Below are positions 1-15,051 of a stretch of 16,281 nucleotides of DNA, one piece after another. Position 1 is the stretch's first letter. Each line of letters starts with the position of its first letter. The notes under the pieces are model-generated. The model did not search any database, was not told where the DNA came from, and saw only the letters and a program-made list of their open reading frames with translations. The translations under genes were made by a program, and so were the position numbers. Origin of the DNA: Eubacteriales bacterium (lineage in GTDB: Bacteria > Bacillota > Clostridia > Peptostreptococcales > Anaerovoracaceae); the NCBI GenBank assembly GCA_028702415.1, contig JAQVOT010000007.1, forward strand, positions 1-16,281, in the 5' to 3' direction.

Positions 1-97
1 GGGAACTGCTTCCGCATCCCCCAAGCAAGATGCTCGTCATGGTAATTACGCAAATTCCAACTACGCCTATTTTCTTCTTCCAAAAAACTCTCTTCAT
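1..97 (-). CDS. Lipoprotein, N-terminal part only (gene runs off the window)
   Basis: The minus strand has an AGGAG ribosome site (103-107) five bases before an ATG at 95-97. The frame then stays open to the window edge. The 32 visible residues form a classical lipoprotein signal peptide: a basic start (MKRVFWKKK), a hydrophobic core (IGVVGICVITMTSILL) and the lipobox LLGGC with Cys28, followed by Gly-Ser-Ser-Ser as a linker. The product should be lipidated at Cys28 and anchored on the outer face of the membrane. The mature protein is not in the window, so its function (a substrate-binding protein is one common possibility) cannot be told. The gene lies about 100 bases downstream of the GTPase-RNase gene on the same strand. 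Confidence 0.8.
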   Translation of the reverse strand, partial: MKRVFWKKKIGVVGICVITMTSILLGGCGSSS

Positions 98-158
98 GCT
101 TTCTCCTTTTCCATCGATGACATTTTTCCGTTATGTTGTCATTTTTTTCCTATGTCGA

Positions 159-164
159 ATTATA
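159..164 (-). promoter_or_regulatory. Possible -10 box of the lipoprotein gene
   Basis: A consensus TATAAT is read on the minus strand about 60 bases before the lipoprotein start. No convincing -35 hexamer is seen at 16-18 bases, so the promoter is tentative. No clear terminator separates it from the GTPase-RNase gene upstream, so read-through is also possible. Confidence 0.35.
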
Positions 165-193
165 TTATTTGCCAGTGTAGTTCATGTGAAGAA

Positions 194-2938
194 CTATCTG
201 ATGTCCGGTATTTCAAGTTTGTTAGGATTATCCATGGCGTTCTGTCTTTGCAGCTTCCTGATGAACTCCGCTATTTCCGCGTCCACCTGCTCCACCTCTT
301 TTCTGAAGTCGGCAGCGGAGACCTTGAAGGCGTCATTGCCCATGATTATGGTTTGCTCCATCCTGTCGGAGGTAGCAACTCTAACCCGGTATTTCCGGGA
401 TTTATTCATCGCATTACCGCTTTCATTTGCAGGTTCATTCTTTCCCGCCATCCGGTATGTGGTTCGCTCAATATATGTGTCCGCAGTCTCGGACTCGCCG
501 GTGTATACAACTGTAATGTTGTCGTGCTTTTCCACATGTCGACGACCACCCTTGACCTTGTAGGCGTCAAATACCGCGATCAGTTCGCACTTTCTGTAAC
601 CCTGGTAATTTGATAGAATCTCAATCAGAGCCTCCCGGGCCGCATCGATGTTAACCTTAGCCAGCTCCTTCAGCTCATCCCAGGCAAAGATAATATTGTA
701 CCCATCCACCAGCAGATATTCAGGCAAAGCCATCTCTTCCCGATGCCTTTCCATCTCAAGTGCTCTGCGTTTTCTCTCCTCTTCTTTTTTTCTGCGTTCC
801 AGTTCGCTGTCAAATTCTCTGGCCTCGATGCTCGGTTTCTTTCCTCCCTTTACTGAGCTACCGACATTGAAAGTTCTATCGAATATCCTCTCCAGATCTT
901 TATCCTCCGCAGATGCAAAACCAGACTTGCCCCGGAACCCGGAATCATCACCACCGCTATGGGATTCCATAACATCATTCATCCGAAGACTCACATGCAT
1001 CATGGCATCCGCCTCATCCCAAGGAACGTTGTGCCCTGCACCATGAGAACAGAAAACTGAATCCGCCGTGTTTGCTACATCCCGATCCGCATCATAGGCA
1101 ATTTCAGATACAACAGCATCCCGGTTGTGGCAGGGTTCATAGCCTGCCAACTGCAAAGTCAGACGGCCATAACCTTTGGTATATGATGCTACATCTATAA
1201 CATAATCCTTCATCTCTGATACCGGTGCCTTACCGGTGAGTTTTGTAAGTGCAGCAGCCTTGGAGGTTTCAGCAAAAATCCCCGCTGATACTCCGGCAGC
1301 ACCGCTCCGGTCACCACCCATGGCCCTAACCTGGCAGCTTCCACCCATTCTCTGGACATCAGCCATCGCCCGTCCTACCATGTCATTAGGAACATAGAGC
1401 TCGAATGAATACCAGGGTTCCAGAAGAACCATGTCCCCTGCCGCAAGACTCTTTCTTAGGGCCTGGCGGATCGCTCTGTATGTAGACTGTCTGAAATCTC
1501 CACCTTCAGTATGCTTATCGTGTGCCCGCCCGCCAACAATGGTAATCTTGATATCCGTAATAGGCGACCCGGTCAAAGTCCCCGCGTGCTCCTTCTCAGC
1601 CAGATGTTGCAGGATAAGTCTCTGCCAGTTTGTATCCAGCACATCGCCGCTTACCGCCGTATCAAACTGCATACCCTCGCCTGAAGGAAGCGGCTCCAAA
1701 AGCAGATGTACTTCCGAATAGTGCCTTAGAGGCTCATAATGCCCTGCCCCCAGTACGGGTTTTGCGATGGTTTCACGGTAGGCGATTCTTCCCTCACCGA
1801 AGCGGACCTGAATCCCGAACCGGCGACTTATTAACTCCTCCAGCACCTCCAGTTGCACCTGGCCCATGAGCCTCACTTGAATCTCCTGCAATTGCTCACT
1901 CCAGTTAATCTGAAGCTGAGGATCTTCCTCCGCAAGCTGCCTGAATTTCACATATGTATCATGAACATTTATACCCTTCGGCAGAATCACGCTGTATGAG
2001 ATTACGGCCTGAGACAGCACCCCCGGGGCCTCCGTTTCGGAAAGCCCTGTCACAGAACAGATAGTTCCGGCCACAGCTTTATCCACGGTAGTGAAACTCT
2101 TGCCGGAATATATCCTTATCTGATTTACTTTTTCTTCACCGATAGTATCCCGCACCCTCAAGGTTCCGCTGACCACCTTGATATGTGTCAGCCTTTCCCC
2201 CAACTTGTCACGGGTAATTTTAAAAGGTCTGATGACCAGTTCCGCTTCTTCATCAAAGGATGTAAGCACCAGCCTGTCGAGGCTCTCCATGAACTCATCA
2301 AGGCCCTGAAGCTTAAGAGCTGAGCCAAAGTAGCATGGAAAAACTTTTCGCGAAGCAATGGCCCGGGAAATATCTTCCTCCGAGATGCTTCCGGATTCAA
2401 TAAACTCATCCATGAGCCCTTCATCGCACATTGCAATTTCTTCGTACCGGTCAGACAGATCGGTAAAATCAACGCAGCTGTCAGCCAGGCTGCTCTTCAG
2501 ATCCTGCAGGATCGCTTTTGCATCCGTACCCTCAGCATCCATTTTGTTCACAAAAATAAAAGCGGGTACATTATATCTTTCAAGCAGTTTCCACAGCGTG
2601 GCGGTATGTCCCTGAACCCCGTCCCTGCCGCTGATGACAAGAATGGCATAATCCAGCACACCCAGAGTTCTCTCCATTTCCGCCGTGAAATCCACGTGAC
2701 CCGGCGTATCCAGAAGAGTCACATCATGCAAAGGCAAGGCGAAGGCGGCCTGTCCGGCGAAGATAGTAATCCCTCTATCTTTCTCCTGCTCATCAGTATC
2801 AAGAAAAGCGCTGGCGTGGTCCACCCTGCCCAGCTGACGAATCGCTCCGGCCCGGTAGAGCATAGCCTCTGACAATGTGGTCTTTCCTGCGTCAACGTGA
2901 GCCAGTATTCCAATTGTAAGTTTCCTGCTTTTTCTCAT
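194..2938 (-). CDS. TetM/EF-G-like translational GTPase fused to a Rae1/YacP-type NYN ribonuclease
   Basis: The protein has 914 residues from the ATG at 2936-2938. Residues 1 to about 655 follow the TetM/TetO ribosomal-protection and EF-G fold: P-loop AHVDAGKTT (13-21), switch I RGIT (55-58), DTPGH (77-81), NKMD (131-134), and an EF-G-type domain IV/V with LLEPWYSFELYVP (505-517) and SYTKGYGRL (585-593). A charged linker (about 705-735, many Glu/Arg/Lys, probably helical) leads to a NYN/PIN-like domain (740 to about 880). This domain carries the YacP/Rae1 signatures VDGYNII (Asp745, Asn748), VFDAY (Asp791), ETAD (Glu817, Asp820) and TSDRMEQ (Asp858). Tet-type proteins are about 640 residues, so the tail is a real addition. 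Rae1 of Bacillus cuts mRNA in the ribosomal A site, where TetM-like factors also bind. A ribosome-directed nuclease or rescue factor is therefore inferred. Tetracycline resistance is doubtful because the loop equivalent to the TetM Ser-Pro-Val tip reads RAHDKHTEGGDFR (471-483). A TTG six codons upstream (2956) is rejected because it lies in the promoter. Confidence 0.9.
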   Translation of the reverse strand: MRKSRKLTIGILAHVDAGKTTLSEAMLYRAGAIRQLGRVDHASAFLDTDEQEKDRGITIFAGQAAFALPLHDVTLLDTPGHVDFTAEMERTLGVLDYAILVISGRDGVQGHTATLWKLLERYNVPAFIFVNKMDAEGTDAKAILQDLKSSLADSCVDFTDLSDRYEEIAMCDEGLMDEFIESGSISEEDISRAIASRKVFPCYFGSALKLQGLDEFMESLDRLVLTSFDEEAELVIRPFKITRDKLGERLTHIKVVSGTLRVRDTIGEEKVNQIRIYSGKSFTTVDKAVAGTICSVTGLSETEAPGVLSQAVISYSVILPKGINVHDTYVKFRQLAEEDPQLQINWSEQLQEIQVRLMGQVQLEVLEELISRRFGIQVRFGEGRIAYRETIAKPVLGAGHYEPLRHYSEVHLLLEPLPSGEGMQFDTAVSGDVLDTNWQRLILQHLAEKEHAGTLTGSPITDIKITIVGGRAHDKHTEGGDFRQSTYRAIRQALRKSLAAGDMVLLEPWYSFELYVPNDMVGRAMADVQRMGGSCQVRAMGGDRSGAAGVSAGIFAETSKAAALTKLTGKAPVSEMKDYVIDVASYTKGYGRLTLQLAGYEPCHNRDAVVSEIAYDADRDVANTADSVFCSHGAGHNVPWDEADAMMHVSLRMNDVMESHSGGDDSGFRGKSGFASAEDKDLERIFDRTFNVGSSVKGGKKPSIEAREFDSELERRKKEEERKRRALEMERHREEMALPEYLLVDGYNIIFAWDELKELAKVNIDAAREALIEILSNYQGYRKCELIAVFDAYKVKGGRRHVEKHDNITVVYTGESETADTYIERTTYRMAGKNEPANESGNAMNKSRKYRVRVATSDRMEQTIIMGNDAFKVSAADFRKEVEQVDAEIAEFIRKLQRQNAMDNPNKLEIPDIR

Positions 2939-2944
2939 AGATAG

Positions 2945-2953
2945 ATTATAGCA
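2945..2953 (-). promoter_or_regulatory. Extended -10 promoter of the GTPase-RNase gene, apparently leaderless
   Basis: On the minus strand TGCTATAAT (TATAAT at 2945-2950 with the extended TGn) ends six bases before the ATG at 2938. Transcription should start at, or within a base or two of, the start codon. There is no Shine-Dalgarno sequence upstream, which fits a leaderless mRNA. No good -35 is visible. The upstream bases belong to the rplT terminator stem and its T-run. Confidence 0.7.
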
Positions 2954-2954
2954 C

Positions 2955-2988
2955 AAAAAAATGAGTCACTATACCCTGGTGACTCATT
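2955..2988 (-). terminator. Rho-independent terminator of infC-rpmI-rplT
   Basis: The arms AATGAGTCAC (2960-2969) and GTGACTCATT (2979-2988) form a perfect 10-bp stem with a 9-base loop. On the minus strand the stem runs into a T-run at 2955-2960. It lies 11 bases after the rplT stop and directly precedes the -10 box of the next gene. Confidence 0.9.
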
Positions 2989-2999
2989 CTAATGGATTC

Positions 3000-3353
3000 T
3001 TATAGTGCCTTCCTTGCTGCGTCGCAAACTGCAGTAAAGCCTGCAGGATCGTGGATTGCCATTTCTGACAGCATCTTTCTGTTGATGTCAATGTTAGCTG
3101 CCTTCAGGCCGCCCATAAGCTTTGAATAGCTCATGTCATTCATTCTTGCTGCTGCGTTTATTCTGGTGATCCAAAGTTTTCTGTAGTCTCTCTTCTTGTT
3201 CTTACGTCCAACGTAAGCTGATCTGAGAGCCCTCATAGTTGCCGGCTTTGCTGCTCTAAACGTGCTGTGCTTAGAACCATAGAAGCCTCTCGCCATCTTC
3301 AATACTTTCTTATGTCTCTTGTGTGCGTTTACACCTTTTTTTACTCTTGCCAT
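3000..3353 (-). CDS. rplT: 50S ribosomal protein L20
   Basis: This 117-residue protein is full length for bacterial L20. It starts [19 protein letters not shown] and includes the highly basic [14 protein letters not shown] and [19 protein letters not shown] segments typical of the family. L20 binds 23S rRNA early in 50S assembly. In many Bacillota it also represses its own operon through the infC leader. The gene is last in infC-rpmI-rplT, 12 bases after rpmI, with a G-rich ribosome site (AGGGGG) eight bases before the ATG, and is followed by a strong terminator. Identification is secure. Confidence 0.98.
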
Positions 3354-3365
3354 TTCAATACCCCC

Positions 3366-3563
3366 TTACTTACTAAGAACTTCCTTGATTCTATTCTGAT
3401 CTGCGCTGGTTAATATAGCGGACTGTCTCAGCCCTCTCTTTCTTTTCTGGCTCTTCTTGGTAAGTATGTGACTTTTGTATGCCTTGTTTCTCTTAACTTT
3501 TCCTGAACCTGTTACTTTGAATCTCTTGCATGCCCCTCTATGAGACTTCATCTTGTTTGCCAT
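3366..3563 (-). CDS. rpmI: 50S ribosomal protein L35
   Basis: This 65-residue basic protein has the L35 signature: [25 protein letters not shown] near the start and a [17 protein letters not shown] segment. It is a component of the large ribosomal subunit. An AGGAGG ribosome site lies six bases before the ATG. It sits between infC (52-base gap) and rplT (12-base gap), the usual order in Bacillota. Confidence 0.98.
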
Positions 3564-3615
3564 AATTTCCTCCTATATAAAATGTATTGTTTGACTTATA
3601 TTAAATAGCCAAGGG

Positions 3616-4134
3616 CTACTTTTTATCGCCCTTTGGTGCGAGAACCATTGTCAGACTCCTGCCCTCCATCTTCGGCTTACTTTCAATATTGCTCACTTCA
3701 GAAACGGCCTCGGCATATTTCTTCATGACTTCCAATCCTCTGGCAACATAGTCACGTTCACGACCTCTGAATCGCAGCGAAACCTTGAGCTTGTCTCCTT
3801 CCTTCAGGAATTTCGCTCCGGTCTTAGCCTTGACCATAATGTCATGATCCTCAATAAATGTTGAAAGTCTCATCTCCTTAACCTGAGTTGTGTGTTGCTT
3901 TTTCTTGGCCTCTTTTTCCTTCTTCTGCTGTTCATACTTGAACTTGCCATAGTCAAGAATCTTGCAGACAGGGGGATCAGCCTTTGGCGAGATGCAAACC
4001 AGATCCAGGGACTTTTGCTCCGCCAGATCCAGGGCATCATCCCGGCTCATGATTCCAAGCTGCTCACCGTCAGCAGCAATAACTCTCAGTTCCCTAGCAC
4101 GAATTTCTTCGTTTATTAAAGCTTCTTTTGCTAT
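3616..4134 (-). CDS. infC: Translation initiation factor IF-3, probably starting at an AUA codon
   Basis: IF-3 binds the 30S subunit, checks the start codon and initiator tRNA, and prevents premature joining of 50S. The N domain (INEEIRARELRVI, GEQLGI), the PPVCKILDYGKFKYEQQKKEKEAKKKQ inter-domain region and the C domain (KEMRLSTFIEDHD, GDKLKVSLRFRGRE) are all present. The chosen start is ATA at 4132-4134. An AGGAGGT ribosome site (4143-4149) lies exactly eight bases before it, and the resulting 172 residues match the family. The frame is also open to an ATG at 4174-4176, but that would add 14 Arg-rich residues encoded by the ribosome site and a GC-rich hairpin. Rare start codons (AUU in Escherichia coli) are a known autoregulatory feature of infC, so AUA here is plausible. 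It heads infC-rpmI-rplT behind a structured leader. Confidence 0.95.
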   Translation of the reverse strand: MAKEALINEEIRARELRVIAADGEQLGIMSRDDALDLAEQKSLDLVCISPKADPPVCKILDYGKFKYEQQKKEKEAKKKQHTTQVKEMRLSTFIEDHDIMVKAKTGAKFLKEGDKLKVSLRFRGRERDYVARGLEVMKKYAEAVSEVSNIESKPKMEGRSLTMVLAPKGDKK

Positions 4135-4158
4135 TTCTTTGTACCTCCTCCGTACATC

Positions 4159-4174
4159 GCCGCTCCGCCGCGGC
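4159..4174 (-). promoter_or_regulatory. GC-rich hairpin just before the infC ribosome site
   Basis: GCCGC and GCGGC arms around a six-base loop lie nine bases upstream of the AGGAGGT of infC and within the putative 14-residue extension. A second small hairpin (about 4194-4212, TTGCC/GGCAA arms) precedes it. These structures may modulate infC translation. The role is inferred. Confidence 0.4.
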
Positions 4175-4218
4175 ATTTCGCTCCATCATTGACTTGCCGC
4201 AAAAGCAGGCAAACCATT

Positions 4219-4247
4219 AAAAAGCGCGGACACAAAAGTATCCGCGC
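4219..4247 (-). terminator. Attenuator terminator in the infC leader
   Basis: A perfectly paired 10-bp stem (GCGCGGATAC with GTGTCCGCGC, one G-U pair) with loop TTTT is followed by TTTTT on the minus strand. It lies about 85 bases before the infC start and well after the promoter, so it acts inside the leader and not at the end of a gene. Confidence 0.85.
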
Positions 4248-4335
4248 TCATAAAAACCATTTAGGTAATTTACAATATTAACCCGGTGGCCCAAGCTACC
4301 AAGGTGAGAAGCGGATAACTTCTGCTTACTACCTC
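4219..4335 (-). promoter_or_regulatory. L20-type leader with attenuator upstream of infC
   Basis: From the predicted start near 4333, the minus-strand transcript has a paired region with AGAAG/CTTCT arms (about 4302-4318) inside AGGT/ACCT, then GGTAGC and CCGGGT elements. It ends in an intrinsic terminator: a 10-bp stem (4224-4233 with 4238-4247, one G-U pair), a four-base loop and a T-run at 4219-4223. This layout matches the autogenous L20 leaders before infC in Bacillota, where L20 binding favours termination. The class assignment comes from layout and memory of the family, not from a covariance search. Confidence 0.7.
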
Positions 4336-4339
4336 GTGT

Positions 4340-4368
4340 ATATTATCATAGGGGGAATGGGATTGCAA
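4340..4368 (-). promoter_or_regulatory. Sigma-A promoter of infC-rpmI-rplT
   Basis: On the minus strand TTGCAA (4363-4368), a 17-base spacer and TAATAT (4340-4345) preceded by the extended TGn motif place the start near 4333. It is divergent from the promoter of the sigma-54 regulator, whose -35 begins 17 bases away. Confidence 0.65.
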
Positions 4369-4384
4369 GGGGTATTTTTTAAAC

Positions 4385-4413
4385 TTGTCAATGCCCGATA
4401 CATTAAGTATAAT
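4385..4413 (+). promoter_or_regulatory. Sigma-A promoter of the sigma-54 regulator gene
   Basis: TTGTCA (4385-4390), a 17-base spacer and a perfect TATAAT (4408-4413) predict a start near 4420, about 80 bases before the ATG. One imperfect GATAC-type repeat (4397-4411) lies between -35 and -10 and overlaps the -10 box. A full palindrome (4419-4436) covers the start point. This layout suggests autorepression by the regulator. Confidence 0.75.
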
Positions 4414-4418
4414 TATTT

Positions 4419-4436
4419 TGATACATTATTGTATCA
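4419..4436 (+). promoter_or_regulatory. Operator-like palindrome (GATAC-N6-GTATC), upstream copy
   Basis: TGATACATTATTGTATCA is a palindrome of 7-base arms around TTAT, at the predicted start point of the regulator gene. An imperfect copy lies 23-24 bases upstream (4397-4411). A decayed copy with the core ACATTATTGT follows at 4438-4447. The same motif recurs three times after the regulator gene, which points to the binding site of this regulator. Confidence 0.65.
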
Positions 4437-4499
4437 CACATTATTGTCTCATGTATTATCATATCATACACTATTATTATGCTCGGGAGAATAAACAAT

Positions 4500-5921
4500 A
4501 TGAATTTTAATTACACATCTTTAACCTTCGATCAGCTGCTTCCGATTTTGGACACCATTACAGACGCGATTTTCATAGATGACGCTGATGGCATCTGCCA
4601 GTGGTGCAATAATGCATGTGAAGAACTGTATAACGTTGATTTTGAAGAAATCGTTGGCAAAAGCGTGGACGACCTGGAAAAATCCGGAATCTTCTCACCT
4701 TCTGTTACGAAACGTGTATTGGAAGAGCACAGAGAACTTACAATAATACATGAGAACAGACATGGCCGTCGCCTCATTACCACAGGCACCCCTATTTTCC
4801 TTCCCCTTTCGGATGAAAACTGGCTTCGCGCAGGAAGCAATAAATACGATCGTGAAATATCATTAGTTATTACTGCGTCCAGAGACATAACTCATATCTC
4901 AACCACTTCAGATGATTCGATATATACCACAAGTGCTCTTCTCAAGGCGAAAAATCTGAAGGGAATGAAGGAAATCAATCTTGATGAAAGTGATCTGGTT
5001 TCAGATTCAGAAGCCATGAGGCACGTTGTTGAACTTACCAAGAGGCTGGCATCTGTAAATACCACCGTCCTGATTACGGGTGAGTCAGGTGTTGGCAAAG
5101 GACTTGTAGCCAAAACTCTTCACGATGAAGGTAATCGCTATAAAGGACCTTTTGTTACCGTTAACTGCGGAGCCATTCCGGAAAATCTGATCGAATCCGA
5201 ACTCTTCGGATATGTTGCAGGAGCGTTTACGGGATCACGTGCCGGAGGAAAGAAGGGCTTTTTTGAGGCTGCTCAGGGCGGAACCATATTCCTGGATGAA
5301 ATATCCGAACTTCCCCTCAACCTCCAGGTAAAACTCCTTCAGGTTATCCAGGAAAGGAGGATTACTCCGGTTGGCTCCACCAAGGCTATCCCTATCGATG
5401 TGCGTATAGTATCCGCAACTAACAGAAATCTGGAGCAGAGAGTTAAGGAAGGCAGATTCAGAGATGACCTCTACTACAGACTCAATGTTGTGCCAATAAA
5501 TGTTCCTCCTCTTCGAGAGAGACCGGATGATATCATACCTCTAATTCACAGAAGCCTGGCAAAATGCAACCGTGACCTGGGAGAAAACAAGTCTATTAAT
5601 CATGACGCACTTTCAGTTCTTCTGAAATACCCGTGGCCCGGCAACATCAGGGAACTGCAGAATATAGTTGAAAGACTGGTTATCACCACGTCACACAACG
5701 TGATTAATGAAGAAGATATATTTATCTTCATCAAACAGGCTGCTGATGAAAACCCTGTAGCCACAGACATCTCTTTGGCTACTGCCCTGGAAAAAGCCGA
5801 GAAGGAAATCCTAGCTCAGGCTCTGGAAAGCTACGGCTCCACCAGGGCAATCGCCAGAGTGCTTAAGGTTAGCCAGCCTACAATAGTACGTAAATTGAAT
5901 AAGTATGGATTGACCAAATGA
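4500..5921 (+). CDS. PAS-domain sigma-54-dependent transcriptional activator with TyrR-type HTH
   Basis: The protein has 473 residues: a PAS-like sensor (about 8-130), a linker, an AAA+ sigma-54 interaction domain (about 165-400) and a C-terminal helix-turn-helix. The AAA+ part shows Walker A GESGVGKG (194-201), Walker B GGTIFLDE (260-267) and FRDDLYYRLNV (320-330). The sigma-54 contact loop reads GAFTGS (241-246), not the usual GAFTGA. The HTH (GSTRAIARVLKVSQPTIVRKL, 446-466) resembles that of TyrR. The start is set at 4500 because GGGAG (4485-4489) lies ten bases before it. The in-frame ATG at 4479 is upstream of that site. The regulator should sense a small ligand through PAS, bind the GATAC palindromes around its gene and drive the -24/-12 promoter at 6192-6208. 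Its ligand is unknown. Confidence 0.93.
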   Translation: MNFNYTSLTFDQLLPILDTITDAIFIDDADGICQWCNNACEELYNVDFEEIVGKSVDDLEKSGIFSPSVTKRVLEEHRELTIIHENRHGRRLITTGTPIFLPLSDENWLRAGSNKYDREISLVITASRDITHISTTSDDSIYTTSALLKAKNLKGMKEINLDESDLVSDSEAMRHVVELTKRLASVNTTVLITGESGVGKGLVAKTLHDEGNRYKGPFVTVNCGAIPENLIESELFGYVAGAFTGSRAGGKKGFFEAAQGGTIFLDEISELPLNLQVKLLQVIQERRITPVGSTKAIPIDVRIVSATNRNLEQRVKEGRFRDDLYYRLNVVPINVPPLRERPDDIIPLIHRSLAKCNRDLGENKSINHDALSVLLKYPWPGNIRELQNIVERLVITTSHNVINEEDIFIFIKQAADENPVATDISLATALEKAEKEILAQALESYGSTRAIARVLKVSQPTIVRKLNKYGLTK

Positions 5922-5968
5922 GTCGCGGTACACGTCCCCAAAACTCACAAAACTCATCGATCCAGGTG

Positions 5969-5986
5969 TGATACATTATCGTATCA
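5969..5986 (+). promoter_or_regulatory. Operator-like palindrome, downstream copy 1
   Basis: TGATACATTATCGTATCA differs from the upstream copy (4419-4436) by a single base in the centre. It lies about 240 bases before the predicted start of the sigma-54 operon, a normal distance for an enhancer, and directly abuts the next copy (centres 19 bases apart). Confidence 0.65.
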
Positions 5987-6006
5987 GTGATACTATTTTG
6001 TATCAC
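5987..6006 (+). promoter_or_regulatory. Operator-like palindrome, downstream copy 2
   Basis: GTGATACTATTTTGTATCAC has perfect 7-base arms and a 6-base centre. It stands end to end with copy 1, suggesting cooperative binding by dimers of the sigma-54 activator about 220 bases upstream of the operon start. Confidence 0.65.
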
Positions 6007-6059
6007 ACTGCTATTGTTATTTATTTCAAGGTGTATTGCCTTAATGTTGAGTAAATTAT

Positions 6060-6089
6060 CACGAGCGATACATTTTTGTATCGCTCGTG
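6060..6089 (+). promoter_or_regulatory. Operator-like palindrome, downstream copy 3 with long arms
   Basis: This copy has 13-base perfect arms (6060-6072 and 6077-6089) around TTTT, with the shared GATACA/TGTATC core extended outward by CACGAGC/GCTCGTG. It is centred about 145 bases before the operon start. It could also fold as RNA, but no T-run follows, so a protein-binding site is favoured over a terminator. Confidence 0.6.
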
Positions 6090-6191
6090 TAGTTTCGTAG
6101 GCAATATACTTTTGCATATTTAATTTTTTAATACTGGGAAATCCCTTGATACAATGGCTTCTGCCGCTATCCTGCCCTCCTCTGGGAAAAC

Positions 6192-6208
6192 TTGGCACGG
6201 GCTTTGCG
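6192..6208 (+). promoter_or_regulatory. Sigma-54 (-24/-12) promoter of the dehydrogenase-aminotransferase operon
   Basis: TTGGCACGGGCTTTGCG matches the sigma-54 consensus TTGGCACG-N4-TTGC at every position, with GG (6194-6195) and GC (6206-6207) twelve bases apart. Transcription should start near 6219. It lies downstream of a sigma-54 activator gene and its repeated palindromes. No tRNA or open frame explains the rest of the 5922-6313 interval. The leader contains a small AGTGGG-CTAA-CCCACT hairpin (6249-6264) of unknown role. Confidence 0.92.
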
Positions 6209-6313
6209 TATTATATAAATCGGGTTCTGATGGGCCCGCACATTAAAAAGTGGGCTAACCCACTGAATAAGTTTAACCATTTTTCACATATTAAAAAAGG
6301 AGGAACTAAAAAA

Positions 6314-7738
6314 ATGGCAGATTTTAATGCAAAGGAATACGTTGCAGGTTTAGTAGAAAAAGCCAGAGCGGCTCAGGCAGTTGCCGAGAACTTCACTCAG
6401 GAAGATTGCGACCTGATGACTGCAGCTGTTACTTATGAAATGACTAAGCCGGAAAACATCAAGATGTTTGCTGAGATGCTGGTTGAAGAATCAGGCATGG
6501 GTATTGCGGCTGACAAGCAGGCAAAGATTATCGGTAAGGTTTGGGGCTCATACCTCCAGATGAAAGATAAGAAGACTGTAGGACTGGTTGAAGAAAACAA
6601 GGAAACCGGCATGCAGGCTTATGCTAAGCCAATGGGCGTTGTTGCCGGTATCATGCCTGTAACAAACGGCGAAGCTACTCCTATCGTTAAGTCAAACATG
6701 GCTCTTAAGACAAGAAATGCTATCATCCTTGCTCCACACCCTAAGTGCAGCAAGCTGAACCTATTCGTTGTTGATAAAATCAGAGCAGTCATTGACAAGC
6801 TGGGATATCCAATGGATCTGGTACAGACTTGTGAACCTGAAGCCGTTAAGCTTTCAACTTCACAGGAACTGATGAAGCAGTGTGACTTCATCCTGGCAAC
6901 CGGCGGCGAAGCACTGGTAGAAACAGCTTACTCATCCGGTACTCCTGCTATCGGCGTTGGTGTTGGTAACTGCGTATCAATCGTAACAGGAAAAACTCCA
7001 ATGAGTCAGGTTGCTGAGCTGATCACAAGATCAAAGAAGTTCGATAACGCTACTTCATGTTCAACAGAAAATAACATCATCGTATTCGAAAGCTGCTATG
7101 ATGAATTCATTAAGGAAATGGAAGCTCACGGTGCTTACATGGTTAAGGGCGATGAAGAAAAGATGAAGCTGCAGAAAGCTATGTGGCCGAACACTCCTAA
7201 CGATAACGTGCTGAACAGAGCAATCGTTGCTCAGAGTGCTGAAAAAATCGCTGAAATCGCCGGTTTTGATGTTCCTGAAGGAACATGCGTGCTGATGGCT
7301 CCGGAAGAGGGCGCATCAATTGAGCACCCATTTGGTGGGGAAAAACTTTCACCTGTATCAGGTATACAGAAGGCTAAGGATCTTGACGACGCAATCGCTA
7401 AGCTGATGGCTTGTCTGGATTATCAGGGCAAGGGCCACAGCTGCGGTATCCACACTGACGATCCTGCAGACGTAGAGAAGCTCGCTATGATTGCTCCTGT
7501 AACCAAGTGCGTTGTTAACCAGCCACAGTGCCTCGTTAACTCCGGTGGATGGACTTGCGGATTCCCTGTATCAATGACTCTGGGTTGCGGAACTTGGGGC
7601 GGAAACTCACTGTCACACAACGCAACATTCGCAGACCTTCTGAACTACACATATGTTTCAAGAGAAATTCCTAACTGGAAGCCGGAAAAGGTTGAAGACT
7701 TCATCGACGCATCAGTAATCGCTAAAGTTGATGCATAA
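6314..7738 (+). CDS. CoA-acylating aldehyde dehydrogenase (sulfoacetaldehyde/succinate-semialdehyde dehydrogenase type)
   Basis: The protein has 474 residues and starts at the ATG ten bases after AGGAGG (6298-6303). The open frame before it (to 6146) overlaps the promoter. It belongs to the acylating aldehyde dehydrogenases, which oxidise an aldehyde to an acyl-CoA with NAD(P) through a catalytic cysteine, probably Cys249 in FDNATSCSTENN (243-253). Other family marks are KPMGVVAGIMPVTN (105-118), TGGEALVETAYSSGTPAIGVGVGN (196-219, cofactor side) and the C-terminal TLGCGTWGGNSLSHN (422-436). The FDNATSCS region and the TLGCG motif look closest to SauS and SucD rather than to acetaldehyde-specific EutE. 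It is co-transcribed with the omega-aminotransferase (21-base gap), so the likely substrate is the semialdehyde made by that enzyme. Sulfoacetaldehyde, malonate semialdehyde and succinate semialdehyde cannot be separated by eye. The even, biased codon use suggests high expression. Confidence 0.88.
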   Translation: MADFNAKEYVAGLVEKARAAQAVAENFTQEDCDLMTAAVTYEMTKPENIKMFAEMLVEESGMGIAADKQAKIIGKVWGSYLQMKDKKTVGLVEENKETGMQAYAKPMGVVAGIMPVTNGEATPIVKSNMALKTRNAIILAPHPKCSKLNLFVVDKIRAVIDKLGYPMDLVQTCEPEAVKLSTSQELMKQCDFILATGGEALVETAYSSGTPAIGVGVGNCVSIVTGKTPMSQVAELITRSKKFDNATSCSTENNIIVFESCYDEFIKEMEAHGAYMVKGDEEKMKLQKAMWPNTPNDNVLNRAIVAQSAEKIAEIAGFDVPEGTCVLMAPEEGASIEHPFGGEKLSPVSGIQKAKDLDDAIAKLMACLDYQGKGHSCGIHTDDPADVEKLAMIAPVTKCVVNQPQCLVNSGGWTCGFPVSMTLGCGTWGGNSLSHNATFADLLNYTYVSREIPNWKPEKVEDFIDASVIAKVDA

Positions 7739-7759
7739 ACGAGAAAAGGAGATATAGAA

Positions 7760-9085
7760 ATGTCAGCAATTAGAGATAAAGATTTAAAGTATAATATTCA
7801 TTCATGGTCCGCTCAGGGGGCACTGAACCCTATCGTAGTAACCAAGGCTGAAGGAATTTACTTCTGGGACGAAGACGGCAAGAAGTATGCAGATATGTCA
7901 TCACAGCTGGTTAACTCAAACCTTGGCCACGGAAACAGAGCTATCATCGATGCTATCGTTGAACAGGCTAATAAGATGCCTTTCATGGGTCCAGGATTTG
8001 CTATCGACTGCAGATCAGACGCTGCTGAAGCAATAGTAAATATGTCCGGTTTCCCTGAAGGATCAAAAGTATTCTTCACTAACGCAGGAGCAGAAGCAAA
8101 CGAAAACGCTATCAAAATCGTTCGTCAGTTCACAGGCAAGCTGAAAATCTTCTCACAGTACAGATGCTATCATGGTTCATCCGCAGGTGCAGGTATGCTT
8201 ACCGGCGAACCTAGACACTTCTTCAACGAGCCGGGAGGCCCTGGTTACGTAAAATATGATGGACCTTATGCTTACAGAGCACCTAAGGCCTGCAAGTTTG
8301 CAAACGATGACGAAGTTGCAGATTTCTATCTGGAACTGCTGGAAAATCAGATCCTGTACGAGGGACCTGAACAGATCGCTGCAATCTGGCTGGTATCAGT
8401 AGTAGGTTCAAACGGCGTACTTATTGCTCCGGTTAAGTGGTATCAGGGTGTAAGAGCGCTGTGCGACAAGTATGGAATCCTGATGGTAGCTGACGAAGTT
8501 ATGGCAGGATGGTTCAGAACAGGTAAAGCATTTGCTTACATGAACTTCGGATATCAGCCTGATATTATCACATTCGCCAAGGGTGTAACATGCGGTTATG
8601 TTCCTATCGGCGGCGTGGTAGTATCCCCTGCAATCGCTAAGTTCTTCGACAATACTTCACTGGGTTGCGGACTGACTTACTCAGCCCATCCACTTGGTTG
8701 TGCTGCTGCAGTTGCAACGATCAAGGAATACAAGGATCAGGACGTAGAGAACAAGATCAAGGTTACAGGCAAAGTTCTGGCAGACATCCTGGACGGCTTT
8801 GCTGAAAAGCACGCTTGCGTAGGTCAGGTAAGACACATCGGTCTGTTCTCAGCAATCGAGCTGGTTAAGGACAAGGCTACAAGAGAACCCCTGGTTCCTT
8901 TCGGCAAGGACCCTGAAGGCATTATGCCTAAAATCCTGGGAATGCTGAAGGCTGATGGATTCTGGACATATTCACACGAGAACATGTTCGTAGTAACTCC
9001 TCCGCTCATCATCACTGAAGATCAGTTGAGAGAACAGCTGCCGATCGTAGACAAGGTACTGGATGCAGTAGATGCTATGATCTAA
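7760..9085 (+). CDS. Class III PLP-dependent omega-aminotransferase (taurine/beta-alanine/GABA type)
   Basis: The 441-residue protein is full length for class III (fold type I) transaminases. It shows the substrate-side HSWSAQ (14-19), TNAGAEANENAIK (107-119) for PLP phosphate, the aromatic/His stretch YRCYHGS (134-140), ADEVMAGWFRTG (244-255, Asp245 pairing with the PLP pyridine N) and Lys274 in FAKGVTCGYVPIGG (272-285), the Schiff-base lysine. It moves a terminal amino group to an oxo acid and yields a semialdehyde. The HSWSAQ start recalls the taurine:2-oxoglutarate aminotransferases of anaerobes, which is a recollection and not a search result. It has an AAGGAG site before the ATG and follows the acylating dehydrogenase in one operon. 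The pair predicts omega-amino acid to acyl-CoA catabolism. No sulfoacetaldehyde reductase, Xsc or transporter is present in the window. Confidence 0.88.
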   Translation: MSAIRDKDLKYNIHSWSAQGALNPIVVTKAEGIYFWDEDGKKYADMSSQLVNSNLGHGNRAIIDAIVEQANKMPFMGPGFAIDCRSDAAEAIVNMSGFPEGSKVFFTNAGAEANENAIKIVRQFTGKLKIFSQYRCYHGSSAGAGMLTGEPRHFFNEPGGPGYVKYDGPYAYRAPKACKFANDDEVADFYLELLENQILYEGPEQIAAIWLVSVVGSNGVLIAPVKWYQGVRALCDKYGILMVADEVMAGWFRTGKAFAYMNFGYQPDIITFAKGVTCGYVPIGGVVVSPAIAKFFDNTSLGCGLTYSAHPLGCAAAVATIKEYKDQDVENKIKVTGKVLADILDGFAEKHACVGQVRHIGLFSAIELVKDKATREPLVPFGKDPEGIMPKILGMLKADGFWTYSHENMFVVTPPLIITEDQLREQLPIVDKVLDAVDAMI

Positions 9086-9114
9086 GCTTAAAGCTTAATC
9101 TGAATGAACATAAG

Positions 9115-9148
9115 GACGGCTTCATCATCGGCTTTGAAGCCGTCTTTT
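9115..9148 (+). terminator. Terminator of the dehydrogenase-aminotransferase operon
   Basis: GACGGCTTCA (9115-9124) and TGAAGCCGTC (9135-9144) form a perfect 10-bp stem with a 10-base loop, followed by TTTT. The promoter of the next gene starts within it: a TTGAAG (9134-9139) that could serve as -35 is in the 3' arm. Confidence 0.88.
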
Positions 9149-9160
9149 AATGTGCTATAA
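9134..9160 (+). promoter_or_regulatory. Extended -10 promoter of larA, apparently leaderless
   Basis: TGCTATAAT (9152-9160, TATAAT at 9155-9160) ends seven bases before the ATG at 9168, so the transcript should begin at or next to the start codon. No Shine-Dalgarno sequence is present. A weak -35 candidate, TTGAAG (9134-9139), has a 15-base spacer and lies in the terminator stem. The segment TGTGCTATAATCT is identical to that before the GTPase-RNase gene. Confidence 0.7.
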
Positions 9161-9167
9161 TCTTTTT

Positions 9168-10436
9168 ATGAAAATCAAACTCGGATATGGCAGCGGGTTT
9201 CAGTCCGCAGATGTGCCTGAAAACAACATAATTAAATTATTAAAGCCCAATGAAATTTCTCGCAAAGGCAGCCAAGAGATCCCGGCAGCATCAGATGCAC
9301 CTTCCATTGTCAGGGAGGCACTGGCTGAGCCCATCGGCGCTCATAAGCTGAGGGACATGGTTCAGCCCGGCGAGAAGATCGTAATCATCACAAGCGACAT
9401 CACCAGGCCCATGCCAACATGGGATGTGGTTCCACATGTGCTGGATGAGCTCTATACAGCAGGTGCAAAGGCTGGCGACATCAGTCTTGTTTTTGCGCTT
9501 GGAAGTCACAGACCCCATACTGAGGAAGAAAAACTCCATCTTGCCGGGGAACAGGCTTATTACGAAATAAGCTGCGTAGACAGCAACCCCATGGACTGCA
9601 TTCACATGGGGGTCACCTCGAGAGGAACGCCTATAGATATTACACGGATTGTTGCTGAAGCCGACAGACGAATATGTCTTGGCAATATCGAGTATCACTA
9701 TTTCGCAGGATATTCCGGGGGAATCAAGGCACTGATGCCCGGTGCCTCAACACCTGAAGCAATCCAGGCAAACCACTCAATGATGGTTGATGAGAATGCA
9801 TGTGCCGGAAAACTTGATGGTAACCCCCTGAGAGAAGATCTGGAAGAAGCTGCCGGTATCTGCAACATTGATTTCATCGTTAATGTTGTTCTTGATGAAC
9901 ACAAGAAGATAATTCATGCAGTGGCCGGAGGTGTAATAAAAGCACACCGCAGGGGATGTGAATTTCTGGATAGCCTGTATAAAGTTGATATTCCGGAGAG
10001 AGCAGATATAGTAATCGTATCCCAGGGCGGTGCACCGAAGGATCTTAATCTGTACCAGACACAGAAGGCCCTGGATAATTCAAAACATGCGGTGAAGGAT
10101 GGGGGAACCATCATTCTGGTGGGTGCCTGTCCCGAAGGCCTGGGGCAGAAGACCTTTGAAGAATGGATTACTGAAGCCGATAAACCGGAAGACCTTATAA
10201 AACGTGTTAGAGAAGACTTCAAACTGGGTGGCCACAAGGCGGCAGCAATAGCAATGGTTTTGCAGAGAGCAAACATCAAGCTGGTTTCCGAAATGGATCC
10301 TGACTTCGTCAGATCAATTTTCCTTGAACCCTATCATGACCTGCAGACCGCTATACTGGACGCCCTGAGGGAACATGGCCGGGATGCAAGCATAATCATA
10401 ATGCCCTATGGGGGTTCCACACTACCGGTTCTGTAG
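9168..10436 (+). CDS. larA: LarA-family nickel-pincer 2-hydroxyacid racemase/epimerase
   Basis: The 422-residue protein matches the lactate racemase (LarA) family in length and motifs: SDITRPMP (76-83, Arg80), ALGSHRPHTEEE (110-121, catalytic-type His114), GNIEYHYFAGYSGGIKALMPG (172-192, His177 and Lys187), ANHSM (201-205, His203) and GGAPKDLNLYQTQKAL (287-302). The Lys and two His residues that hold the nickel pincer nucleotide in LarA are present, so an active enzyme is expected. LarA relatives racemise different 2-hydroxyacids (lactate, malate, phenyllactate and others), so the substrate is open. The cofactor makers LarB, LarC and LarE are not in the window and must be elsewhere. The start is set at 9168. 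The in-frame ATG at 9150 overlaps the -10 box. A strong terminator separates it from the aminotransferase operon, so any pathway link is only by position. Confidence 0.87.
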   Translation: MKIKLGYGSGFQSADVPENNIIKLLKPNEISRKGSQEIPAASDAPSIVREALAEPIGAHKLRDMVQPGEKIVIITSDITRPMPTWDVVPHVLDELYTAGAKAGDISLVFALGSHRPHTEEEKLHLAGEQAYYEISCVDSNPMDCIHMGVTSRGTPIDITRIVAEADRRICLGNIEYHYFAGYSGGIKALMPGASTPEAIQANHSMMVDENACAGKLDGNPLREDLEEAAGICNIDFIVNVVLDEHKKIIHAVAGGVIKAHRRGCEFLDSLYKVDIPERADIVIVSQGGAPKDLNLYQTQKALDNSKHAVKDGGTIILVGACPEGLGQKTFEEWITEADKPEDLIKRVREDFKLGGHKAAAIAMVLQRANIKLVSEMDPDFVRSIFLEPYHDLQTAILDALREHGRDASIIIMPYGGSTLPVL

Positions 10437-10498
10437 ATTAACATTGCCGTTTATGTATGCGGCTCCAAGGATTTAAATAAATCAGCTGGTTATAAAAT

Positions 10499-10540
10499 AA
10501 AGAACGTATTCCGCTCCTAGTTGAATGAAATACGTTCTTT
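10499..10540. terminator. Bidirectional terminator between larA and the FN3 protein gene
   Basis: AAAGAACGTATT (10499-10510) and AATACGTTCTTT (10529-10540) form a perfect 12-bp stem with an 18-base loop. T-rich sequence follows on both strands (TTCTTTTG on plus, TTTATTTTATA on minus). The stop codon of the minus-strand gene (10517-10519) lies in the loop, so its last codons form one arm. Confidence 0.85.
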
Positions 10541-12190
10541 TGTTCTGTATATATGGTCTCTGCTTGTTCCCATGGAATTCACCAGCAAAACCAGATACCC
10601 GTCATCAACAACCACGCTCTCAATTTCCCCAATTGGGACCGAGAAACTTCCCAGATACTGCTTATCGGAAACTCTGTAGCAATCAACATAGCTTTTTGAG
10701 CCACTGACCCATGTGCAGACGAGGACAACACCATTATATGCACCTACATCCTGGGCATGGTTGTACCTTATATTCTTCCAGATAAACTTCTCAACATTGA
10801 AATCTGAATCAGTAACGTATATTTCGTTTCCCTTGGAAAGATAGTACTTGTTATTGCTAACATCATATGCTATGCCGGATGTGGTCCGCGGAAGGTTAAA
10901 TTTCTTCTTATATCCGTAGCTGTCCCCATCCAACACCGTGCAGAGACTTGACCTGATACTTTTATGTGTACGAACTGTATAGAAACTGTCAGTATTAGGA
11001 TTGTATGTTGAACCGTTAGCATGTCCCATGCTTACGTTGGGTCCGGATTTTACGTAATTGCCGTTTCTGTCATAGCAAATCAGCACACCCCTAGAACCTG
11101 ACCTGTTAACATATGAAACAACATATCCGTCCTCGGTAAGGCTCATTGACTGAGGTATGTTGCATCCGCTACCCCCTGTTATTGTAGCCAATGTTGTTAA
11201 ATTTGATGAGTTTAGAGTCTCGATCGTGTGGGAAGAACCATAGGCTGTCGCCTTCTCAGCAGCACTTGATACGGTAATTGCCTGACCTGTTTTTGATTCC
11301 ACAGTTTTATCACGAACTGTTGCTTTTGCCTGAAGTGAATACTTTCCCGCATCCCGGGCAATCTCCAGGGTCGAAATTGCTTTCCCGTCTTCTCCGAGAG
11401 CATCGACGGTCTTAACCCTTTCATATTCTCCCGTTGCCGGATTAAGCTTCTCCAAATCATATGCAGTTGCAAAGTCTATAGCCTTCCACCTGAGAGTAAG
11501 GGATGAATCTGTCAATTCTTTTATCCTCGGACTTGGTGTTCGGAGTTTTTCAGGATATACGGTTACATCAAAAGCTTTCCCGGATGCAGCGAATTCCTGG
11601 GTTTCTGCCGCCACCACAAGGATTTTTGTACGGCCAGGTTCCAGAAATTTTATATCGCCCTTTTCATTCTCAACAGCTATTTTCTCATCTGCAATATGAC
11701 AGTAAATATCCCCTGTAGCCGATGCATCAACTGCAATTTTGTCTCCCTTGAAGCCATCGAAGTTTTCATTGGAGATGTTCATTTCCTGGGGTGGCTTGAT
11801 CGTGATCTCACCATAGTCATCCATGGACAAATCCTGGCCAATGGTACCCCTGACCGTAATCCTGTAAGTCACTCCTTCTTTAAGATTTCTGATCTTGTGA
11901 CTGTTATCCTTTGATGCTTCCAGCCAGGATTTCTCCGGATCTGTTTCCGGTCCTGCCACTTCTCCGGAGGGGTCTAACTGTTCTATCCTTATTTCATACC
12001 CGTCCATATTCGTATTGTCCCAGGTTGCATATACAATGTTATCAAACTGTGTGATCTGCAAACCTGTAACCCTTTCCGAAACCCGGGATTTCTGGACTCC
12101 AAAAATCAAAAAAAGCATAACAAGACATGCTGCCAGTATAACCGACAGCATAATCAACTGAAACTTTGAAATTGGATATCTATATTTCAT
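10517..12190 (-). CDS. Membrane-anchored fibronectin type III / propeller-like protein
   Basis: The protein has 557 residues from the ATG at 12188-12190, one base after the lexA stop. It has a short cytoplasmic start, one membrane helix (about 10-32) and a long outer part. The outer part holds an FN3-like domain (about 38-134, VTGLQITQFDNIVYATWDN), a Big/Ig-like stretch (about 135-213), a second FN3-like domain (about 214-308, LTLRWKAIDFATAYDLEKL) and a C-terminal region (about 320-557). That last region has repeated short beta motifs such as GVLICYDRNGNYV, NEIYVTDSDFNVEKF and SYVDCYRVSDKQYLGSF that look like propeller blades. A surface-exposed binding or adhesion role is likely, but no catalytic motif is seen. 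A GTG at 12211, inside lexA, is an alternative start. Neither start has a clear ribosome site, so translation is probably coupled to lexA. Confidence 0.8.
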   Translation of the reverse strand: MKYRYPISKFQLIMLSVILAACLVMLFLIFGVQKSRVSERVTGLQITQFDNIVYATWDNTNMDGYEIRIEQLDPSGEVAGPETDPEKSWLEASKDNSHKIRNLKEGVTYRITVRGTIGQDLSMDDYGEITIKPPQEMNISNENFDGFKGDKIAVDASATGDIYCHIADEKIAVENEKGDIKFLEPGRTKILVVAAETQEFAASGKAFDVTVYPEKLRTPSPRIKELTDSSLTLRWKAIDFATAYDLEKLNPATGEYERVKTVDALGEDGKAISTLEIARDAGKYSLQAKATVRDKTVESKTGQAITVSSAAEKATAYGSSHTIETLNSSNLTTLATITGGSGCNIPQSMSLTEDGYVVSYVNRSGSRGVLICYDRNGNYVKSGPNVSMGHANGSTYNPNTDSFYTVRTHKSIRSSLCTVLDGDSYGYKKKFNLPRTTSGIAYDVSNNKYYLSKGNEIYVTDSDFNVEKFIWKNIRYNHAQDVGAYNGVVLVCTWVSGSKSYVDCYRVSDKQYLGSFSVPIGEIESVVVDDGYLVLLVNSMGTSRDHIYRTKERISFN

Positions 12191-12191
12191 C

Positions 12192-12872
12192 TTAGAAATA
12201 TCTGAACACACCCTTTACCTTACCAAGTATTTTAACATCGTCCAGGATGATCGGACTCATTGTTGAGTTTTCGGGCTGCAGGCGAATGTGACCTTTTTCT
12301 CTGTAGAAGGTCTTAACGGTGGCCTCGCTCTCAAAGCCATCCACCATGGCAACTACCATGTCTCCGTTGCGGGCTTCACTGCACTGTTCAACCAGAATAT
12401 AATCCCCGTCCATTATACCTGCTTCTATCATGCTTTCACCACGAACAGTCAGCATGAATGTGGTGCCGTTTCCAACAAATCGGGCAGGAACCGGGAAACT
12501 GTCCTCTATGTTCTGCTCAGCCAGTATAGGTGTACCTGCTGCAATTCTGCCAACCAGCGGAACATCGATCACATCGGCACGCTCAACTCCATCCGACGCA
12601 GCTCCTGGATTCACTCCGAATCCCGCATTCACTGCGTTTCTGATCGCTCCCTGTTGATCAAAATCATCATCGGCAACCAGCAGAGCCCTCGGTCTTGCCG
12701 GGTCCTTCTTCAGAAATCCCTGAGCCTCCAGACTGGCAATATCCTTATGACAAGTGGACGTGGATTTAATGCCAAGCTCTGTACAGATCTCCCGCACTGT
12801 TGGCGGATAGCCCTTCTCCCGGATATTCTTCTTCATATATTCAAGTATTCTCTGTTCACGCTCCTTTGACAT
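12192..12872 (-). CDS. lexA: LexA, SOS-response repressor
   Basis: LexA represses DNA-damage genes and cleaves itself when bound by RecA filaments. The 226-residue protein has an N-terminal winged helix (GYPPTVREICTELGIKSTST, 21-40). It then has the self-cleavage bond Ala112-Gly113 in GRIAAGTP, the catalytic Ser147 in RGESM and Lys187 in SEATVK. It is about 20 residues longer than typical LexA because of an acidic/glycine-rich linker (about 65-100). The start is the ATG six bases after AGGAGG. The 21 extra upstream codons lack such a site. An inverted repeat overlapping the -35 region points to autoregulation. The stop is one base before the start of the FN3-type protein gene, an unusual partner for lexA. 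Confidence 0.96.
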   Translation of the reverse strand: MSKEREQRILEYMKKNIREKGYPPTVREICTELGIKSTSTCHKDIASLEAQGFLKKDPARPRALLVADDDFDQQGAIRNAVNAGFGVNPGAASDGVERADVIDVPLVGRIAAGTPILAEQNIEDSFPVPARFVGNGTTFMLTVRGESMIEAGIMDGDYILVEQCSEARNGDMVVAMVDGFESEATVKTFYREKGHIRLQPENSTMSPIILDDVKILGKVKGVFRYF

Positions 12873-12939
12873 AGGACACCTCCTGAAAACAATATGCAAC
12901 TTCTTTAATGGCAAGCATATAGCCTGCTTTTGCATCTAC

Positions 12940-12968
12940 AGTTTAGCATATCTTGAGCTGCAATGCAA
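12940..12968 (-). promoter_or_regulatory. lexA promoter
   Basis: On the minus strand TTGCAT (12963-12968), a 17-base spacer and TAAACT (12940-12945) preceded by the extended TGC motif predict a start near 12933, about 60 bases before the lexA ATG. The -35 box overlaps the LexA-type operator. Confidence 0.65.
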
Positions 12969-12979
12969 ACATTTGTTTG
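12966..12979 (-). promoter_or_regulatory. LexA operator (SOS box)
   Basis: CAAACAAATGTTTG on the minus strand fits the Gram-positive SOS box CGAAC-RNRY-GTTYG at all but one position (A for G at position 2). It overlaps the lexA -35 hexamer. It is the core of a longer imperfect palindrome (12958-12987) with CTGCAA/TTGCAG outer arms. LexA-controlled autorepression is the natural reading. Confidence 0.7.
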
Positions 12980-12998
12980 TGTTGCAGAAAATTCGTTC

Positions 12999-14192: not shown

Positions 14193-14193
14193 A

Positions 14194-15039: not shown

Positions 15040-15051
15040 TTCATTTCTCCA

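Follow-up and report, generated by a model that had tools for sequence, protein, structure and literature searches.

Rae1 (YacP) of Bacillus subtilis is described, in the accessible text of two reports (PMC6613710, PMC12320835), as an endonuclease that cuts mRNA in the A site of translating ribosomes. Atkinson et al. (2015, PMC4342817) reported that Tet proteins of ten Clostridiales species acquired a YacP-like NYN domain; the accessible part of that paper suggests a resistance mechanism and cites an early prediction that NYN domains process rRNA or tRNA. In the present study, a gene encoding such a GTPase-nuclease fusion was analysed in contig JAQVOT010000007.1 of assembly GCA_028702415.1 (Eubacteriales bacterium), positions 1-16,281, i.e., the whole stretch of DNA under analysis, hereafter the window. 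The fusion is present in many gut Clostridia and is very probably the Rae1 of the genomes that carry it, having replaced the separate copy.

The architecture has been in print since 2015. Measured against the accessible part of PMC4342817, the new points are the position of the GTPase outside the Tet(M) group, the presence of the fusion in place of Rae1, and the retention of the acidic residues across fusions. No functional account of the fusion was found in the literature searched, where only PMC4342817, as far as its accessible text goes, describes the architecture; the search was not exhaustive, and the Rae1 papers of 2017 and 2018 lay outside it. The first-pass annotation of this DNA knew of no biochemical account of the architecture, which had already been reported in 2015.

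Architecture of the fusion protein

The gene is one unbroken frame of 914 amino acids (aa) on the minus strand, running from the ATG at 2938-2936 to the stop at 196-194. The plus strand across 194-2938 is interrupted by stops. By Pfam, a complete EF-G/TetM-type GTPase and a complete NYN_YacP (Rae1) domain lie in this single chain. The assigned domains were GTP_EFTU (residues 7-224, E 9.5e-49), EF-G_D2, EFG_III with a score exactly at the cut-off, EFG_IV (residues 383-497), EFG_C (residues 555-605) and NYN_YacP (residues 742-901, E 8e-41, 140.2 bits vs the curated cut-off of 24.6). The first-pass annotation had proposed this 914-residue fusion, and the Pfam match of the tail bears it out; its extent of 194..2938 was also correct, but it gave no strand.

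The tail was aligned with the B. subtilis YacP/Rae1 chains 5mq8 and 5mq9 (E ~1e-22). Its acidic residues were in register with both chains, i.e., DGYN (D745), VFDA (D791), E.ETAD (E817 and D820) and TSD (D858), the same five that had been read from the letters before. Conservation was examined in 80 fusions, i.e., the window and 79 of the best 80 loci; L013 was dropped for its interrupted frame, and the alignments exclude L001 and L013. The four Asp were kept in 80/80 fusions and E817 in 79/80, which answers the earlier worry that the acids might be mutated in orthologues. In a wider set, the four Asp were kept in all 89 fused and all 20 stand-alone NYN domains. By sequence, the tail is a member of the NYN_YacP/Rae1 family with an intact active site, and its mRNA cleavage is predicted from Rae1. 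The NYN domain of the window also carries an insertion of up to 16 residues ahead of the TSD motif (residues 831-850, ~389-448 of the minus strand). The edges of this insertion were occupied in at most 8 of the 89 fused sequences, and its middle only in that of the window.

The GTPase motifs, i.e., P-loop, DTPGHVDF and NKMD, were intact, and D16, K19 and H81 were found in 80/80 fusions. These motifs together with EF-G domains II-V mark the arm as an EF-G-like translational GTPase. However, its scores lay below the NCBIfam cut-offs for both tet_protect (373 bits vs 775) and EF-G, TIGR00484 (267.1 bits vs the equivalog cut-off of 659.4). Identity was ~29% to Tet(M) and ~27-30% to the Tet(M)/Tet(O)/Tet(36)/Otr(A) group. 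The domain-IV tip loop YYSPVSTPADFR of the Tet(M) group has a role in displacing tetracycline. In one alignment, the tip was AHDKHTEGGDFR in the window, YYSPVSTPADFR in Tet(M) and Tet(36), GPISTAADFR in an otr(A)-like protein and YHEVDSSEMAFK in EF-G; the residues K475-H476-T477 were kept in 80/80 fusions. Domain V is followed by a module, CHN...SVFCSHGAG..V.W.....MH, whose C603, C630 and H648 were likewise present in 80/80 fusions. The reference Tet and EF-G sequences of the alignment were without this Cys/His C-terminal module.

A quick GTPase tree was built from 79 sequences; the program flagged several long branches, and the trees were built after thinning the fused loci by about half. One branch, with a support of 100 in the Shimodaira-Hasegawa-like approximate likelihood ratio test (SH-aLRT), set 74 subfamily sequences apart from TetM, Tet36, the OtrA-like protein, EF-G and G130, a distant relative left out of the unfused set. 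By NCBIfam cut-off, domain-IV tip and tree, the GTPase is a separate subfamily outside the Tet(M) group, and the tetracycline-resistance label on the fusion is unsupported by sequence. The earlier description as TetM-like therefore holds for fold and domain order, but the subfamily is separate and without the Tet(M) tip. A role in anti-phage defence was also considered and found no PADLOC match (0 families at E 0.001).

The AlphaFold2 model (72 sequences) had a mean predicted local distance difference test score (pLDDT) of 80.8 and a predicted template modelling score (pTM) of 0.57. Residues 600-650 were confidently folded, residues 662-712, which include a weak helix at 676-690, mostly scored below 50, and residues 713-736 formed a charged helix. 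The NYN domain was well predicted apart from parts such as the loop 831-850. In comparison with the PDB, the matches listed were EF-G-fold proteins, the best of the arm being EF-G, ribosome-bound and free; in one comparison they mostly spanned residues 1-617, so that the structural comparison covered the arm. The spacing from H648 to D745 was 74-116 residues in the 80 fusions (median 84).

Fusion and stand-alone Rae1 in Clostridia

A protein homologue search scored 7984 candidates, none of them weaker than E 1e-30; the best 120, with the protein of the window among them, were listed. NYN_YacP, GTP_EFTU, EFG_IV and EFG_C were found together in all of these best 120. Only 10 of the 120 bore a name, and 6 of these 10 names were tetracycline-resistance labels, so the recurrence in Clostridia under such a label, suspected by the first-pass annotation, was found. 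An assembly error as the origin of the fusion was ruled out because the best 120 proteins listed are all fused and one-contig genomes (G022, G191, G238) carry the fusion.

At least 80 fusion loci were detected in a scan of genome contigs, and the record titles among the best 80 include Ruminococcus, Lachnospiraceae, Oscillospiraceae and Faecalicatena. In a sample of the phylum, NYN_YacP was found in 163/299 genomes; among the matches listed, 12 from outside the class of the window have NYN_YacP frames of 877-909 aa, which are fusion-like by length alone. The full-length fusion was present in 2 of 72,556 plasmid records and in 2 of 50,697 phage records, the latter both unannotated "Bacteriophage sp." from faeces. 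A mobile resistance gene was rejected on these counts; the neighbours at 77 loci were clustered, without a screen for mobile or resistance genes.

The co-occurrence of fused and stand-alone copies was scored by frame length in 243 Clostridia genomes, for which 90% completeness was requested and among which the genome of the window was included at 89.7%. NYN_YacP was found in 161/243 genomes and the GTPase, at E 1e-85, in 101/243. Six genomes were dropped for contig ends or broken frames (G044, G156, G172, G185, G190, G235), leaving 237 scorable. The fusion was present in 83 of the 237. A stand-alone NYN_YacP above the cut-off was found in 0/83 fused genomes, as the earlier annotation would have it, vs 72/154 others (Fisher p 1.4e-17, kinship not corrected). 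The 72 comprise 66 listed copies and 6 beyond the end of that list, confirmed at 160-196 aa. Second NYN copies in the fused genomes G120, G174 and G208 were 21-bit fragments under the cut-off and were not counted. Both states occurred within the same families (f21, f22, f26, f27) and genera (g26, g31), never in the same scored genome.

The place of the stand-alone gene was then compared. The same gene lay directly upstream of the stand-alone copy in 16 of 20 loci read; in the one locus tested it was RlmB by NCBIfam (265 bits vs 160), and the gene after rae1 there was SigH. The SigH of G051 was used to find the corresponding locus in 18 fused genomes, chosen by hand, and in 3 with a stand-alone copy. 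In 16/18 fused genomes, rlmB adjoined sigH with no intact rae1 between them, at gaps of 14-583 bp between aligned ends; 15 of these loci had no rae1 match at E 1e-4 and one had a remnant. No rlmB was detected at the locus in the remaining two (G167, G144). The stand-alone controls showed rlmB-rae1-sigH in 2/3, and the third, G048, showed rae1-sigH without rlmB. The widest gap, of 583 bp (L159, G191), had no rae1 match even at E 10.

The remnant was found in G022, a fused genome in one contig, between rlmB and sigH (L154, ~1040-1500). Two significant pieces correspond to residues 48-168 of the G051 protein, and a third, residues 13-42, reached only E 6.4. The remnant has stops and frame changes, with a longest open stretch of 49 codons. 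In G051, from the same genus, this slot holds an intact rae1 and the fusion is absent. No other observation points as directly as the G022 remnant to a separate gene that became dispensable through the fusion. In the genome of the window itself (90% complete), the RlmB model gave only sub-cut-off matches, and the usual setting of a stand-alone copy behind rlmB was not seen in the window, where the copy is fused and lies behind infC-rpmI-rplT. Because no stand-alone copy accompanies the fusion in 83 genomes and 16/18 of the fused genomes compared have rlmB next to sigH with no intact rae1 between, there is little doubt in our judgement that the fusion took the place of the separate Rae1.

Among GTPase genomes with a clear frame (n=98), 83 were fused and 15 unfused. 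The unfused relatives have 639-724 aa and 39-47% identity and carry the Cys/His module as well as the tip, which varies at one or two positions. Therefore, the nuclease was attached behind an existing GTPase. In the GTPase tree, the 16 unfused Clostridia sequences formed one clade (SH-aLRT 100), and the unfused Ligilactobacillus salivarius protein (L101) was placed among the fused ones on a long branch. Large plasmids of L. salivarius (L101, hits H63-H72) carry an unfused, tail-less member outside Clostridia, mostly labelled as TetM/TetW/TetO/TetS family.

Three changes of the fused label are required on the NYN tree, two of them forced by well-supported branches; a single clade of all fused tails was not rejected (approximately unbiased test, p 0.73). 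In G209, the GTPase is unfused and a stand-alone NYN, with no rlmB next to it, groups among the fused tails, perhaps a secondary split of the fusion. Within the family of the window, G001 (L111) and G198 (L112) carry divergent fusions with altered tip and C-terminal module, i.e., Gln at E817 and no C630 or H648 in G001, and no C630 in G198; these fusions may be changing function. G215 of the same family has neither the fusion or GTPase nor NYN_YacP.

Possible modes of action

It is reasonable to consider the fusion as the Rae1 of these bacteria in function also, i.e., a ribosome-dependent mRNA endonuclease tethered to its own EF-G-fold GTPase, with GTPase-assisted cleavage in the A site. We lean towards this reading with moderate confidence. 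The fusion exists, both of its active sites are intact, and no separate rae1 is found where the fusion is present. That the fusion cuts mRNA would follow from Rae1, and that it binds the A site from its EF-G/TetM-type fold; a GTPase that delivers the nuclease there is plausible. The EF-G-fold arm and the flexible tether of the model fit this reading. In the order of events proposed here, the GTPase arm would dock at the factor site when the A site of the ribosome is empty, with the domain-IV tip placed at the position of the A-site tRNA. GTP hydrolysis would then free domain IV, and the NYN domain, on its tether of ~90 residues, would move into the vacated A site and cut the mRNA. With the mRNA cut in the A site, the message would be destroyed, so that the ribosome could be rescued.

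To our knowledge, Rae1 is one of few bacterial enzymes that cut mRNA inside the ribosome. A Rae1 that was fused to an A-site-type GTPase, with the separate copy then discarded, gives a direct handle on how Rae1 gains access to the ribosome. A stronger form may be put forward tentatively, as a possibility that we hold doubtful. In it, the fusion would be a two-stroke ribosome-editing factor whose GTPase, through the tip KHTEGGDFR and the Cys/His module, would sense an empty or blocked A site, clear it, and swing the tethered Rae1 into the decoding centre by GTP hydrolysis to cut the message. If true, the factor would count as an A-site mRNase under GTP control, and much of the gut Clostridia would normally have its Rae1 in this form. 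We know of no other such mRNase.

Several points weigh against GTPase-assisted cleavage. Domain IV and an A-site Rae1 hardly fit together in the A site, and therefore a hand-over must be assumed; at a pTM of 0.57, the model gives no placement of the nuclease against the GTPase or the ribosome. NYN_YacP was absent from 82 of the 154 non-fusion genomes, so Rae1 is dispensable. The expected pairing of the unfused GTPase with a stand-alone Rae1 was not borne out significantly: at one threshold, the latter was found in 8/13 genomes with an unfused GTPase vs 64/141 other non-fused genomes (p 0.38), and two more GTPase genomes, which came from a less strict search in mostly stand-alone genomes, changed this to 10/15 vs 62/139 (p 0.17). 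Five unfused-GTPase genomes were without any NYN_YacP; the GTPase arm therefore has some role without the nuclease, and the two halves may act separately. GTP-driven delivery to marked ribosomes, the proposal of the first-pass annotation, is compatible with the data, but this non-association gives it no support.

The fusion could thus have replaced Rae1 while its halves stayed independent, i.e., a ribosome GTPase and an ordinary Rae1 in one chain for co-expression and general localisation at the ribosome, without GTP-driven delivery. A flexible tether of variable length (74-116 residues), mostly of low confidence in the model, would suit such an arrangement, as would an arm with its own job in the five genomes without NYN_YacP and two halves that are not significantly associated when separate. 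However, the fused state dominates (83 fused vs 15 unfused of 98) and both halves are intact, which suggests that the linkage matters, and we regard independent halves as rather unlikely. The database label, and the suggestion made in the accessible text of PMC4342817, would make the fusion a tetracycline ribosomal protection protein that gained an RNase. This proposal, the sequence names in databases, the common domain order and TetM as the best PDB match by sequence speak for it. The tet_protect score of less than half the cut-off, the tip AHxKHTEGGDFR vs YYSPVSTPADFR of TetM and Tet36, and the fully supported branch that separates TetM, Tet36 and the OtrA-like protein speak against it, as do the position behind the infC-rplT ribosomal operon in the window and 5 of the 6 closest loci and the occurrence in just two plasmid records. 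Resistance is therefore very unlikely to be its role, and the fusion is probably a housekeeping translation-control factor.

The tail might also process rRNA or tRNA, in which case the GTPase would recruit it to ribosomes under assembly or maturation. The window copy lies behind infC-rpmI-rplT, and rae1 stands beside an rRNA methyltransferase gene in 16/20 stand-alone loci (family tested for one), both of which would fit. But the infC neighbourhood is not general, and Rae1, the closest solved relative of the tail, is described in the accessible text of PMC6613710 and PMC12320835 as a cutter of mRNA on translating ribosomes, which makes processing of stable RNA a most improbable role. A large family of proteins from gut bacteria carries a tetracycline-resistance label on weak grounds, and counts of resistance genes in microbiome surveys could therefore be inflated.

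Genomic setting and comparison with known systems

Features of the window are collected in Table 1. The genes other than the fusion and its ribosomal neighbours span 4479-16212 and were named by eye only. The infC-rpmI-rplT genes precede the fusion in the window and in all but one (L004) of its six closest loci. No conserved partner gene was found, as no neighbour cluster within four genes occurred in more than 9/77 loci.

Table 1. Coordinates of predicted features in the window
Feature	Position	Strand	Basis or remark
Fusion gene, 914 aa	194..2938	-	ATG 2938-2936, stop 196-194
NYN_YacP (Rae1) ribonuclease domain, residues 742-901	236..715	-	Pfam, alignment
Tether, residues 649-739	722..994	-	Model: mostly low-confidence ~662-712, charged helix 713-736
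C-terminal extension, residues 603-648	995..1132	-	CHN...SVFCSHGAG..V.W.....MH; folded in model
EF-G-type domains II to V, residues 225-605	1124..2266	-	Pfam; EF-G fold in predicted model
Domain-IV tip loop, residues 470-484	1487..1531	-	AHxKHTEGGDFR replaces Tet(M) YYSPVSTPADFR
GTPase G domain, residues 7-224	2267..2920	-	Pfam GTP_EFTU; AHVDAGKT P-loop, DTPGHVDF (His81), NKMD
Extended -10-like TGCTATAAT	2945..2953	-	Ends 6 nt ahead of ATG; consensus match only
Terminator-like hairpin, then T run	2958..2989	-	Between rplT and fusion gene; -16.3 kcal/mol, z -2.8
rplT	3000-3353	-	NCBIfam; directly upstream of fusion gene
rpmI	~3366-3563	-	Read by eye; upstream of fusion gene
infC	3616-4176	-	NCBIfam; upstream of fusion gene
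L20_leader (Rfam RF00558)	4212-4333	-	78.6 bits; upstream of infC
Sigma-54-type regulator	4479-5921	+	Named by eye
Aldehyde dehydrogenase and aminotransferase	6146-9085	+	Named by eye
larA-like	9150-10436	+	Named by eye
LexA-like	12192-12935	-	Named by eye
VWA-type protein with AAA ATPase	12999-15039	-	Named by eye

The hairpin is absent from a hairpin list whose loop limit was 8. Because it parts the gene from rplT and an extended -10-like TGCTATAAT follows, the fusion gene may have its own promoter and perhaps a leaderless transcript. The sequence TGNTATAATNNNNNNATG occurs twice in the window, at 2936-2953 of the minus strand and 9153-9170 of the plus strand, both at apparent gene starts, with 0.02 expected by chance. 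In the whole genome, 14 sites of this pattern were counted vs 1 for the pattern read backwards. These sites possibly mark leaderless transcripts.

Compared with the Tet-NYN proteins of PMC4342817, the fusion has the same architecture in the same bacterial group and very probably belongs to the same family. The accessible text treats them as Tet proteins and suggests a mechanism of resistance, whereas here the GTPase belongs to a subfamily of its own and the place of Rae1 is taken by the fusion. Rae1/YacP of B. subtilis (5mq8, 5mq9) has the same NYN domain with all acids aligned, but it is a small stand-alone protein, a 181-residue chain without GTPase. The unfused "translation factor GTPase family protein" of Clostridia and L. 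salivarius shares the tip, KHT.GGDFR (VHTVGGDFR in L. salivarius), and the Cys/His module but is without the NYN tail, and 16 of its sequences from Clostridia group as a clade next to the fusions. Tet(M), Tet(O), Tet(36) and Otr(A) have EF-G-like domains I-V as the fusion does, but they differ in the domain-IV tip and the C-terminus and are separated by a fully supported branch. Elongation factor G shares the fold and the GTPase motifs and gave the top structural matches of the fusion, whereas its tip is different and the fusion adds the C-terminal module and the nuclease.

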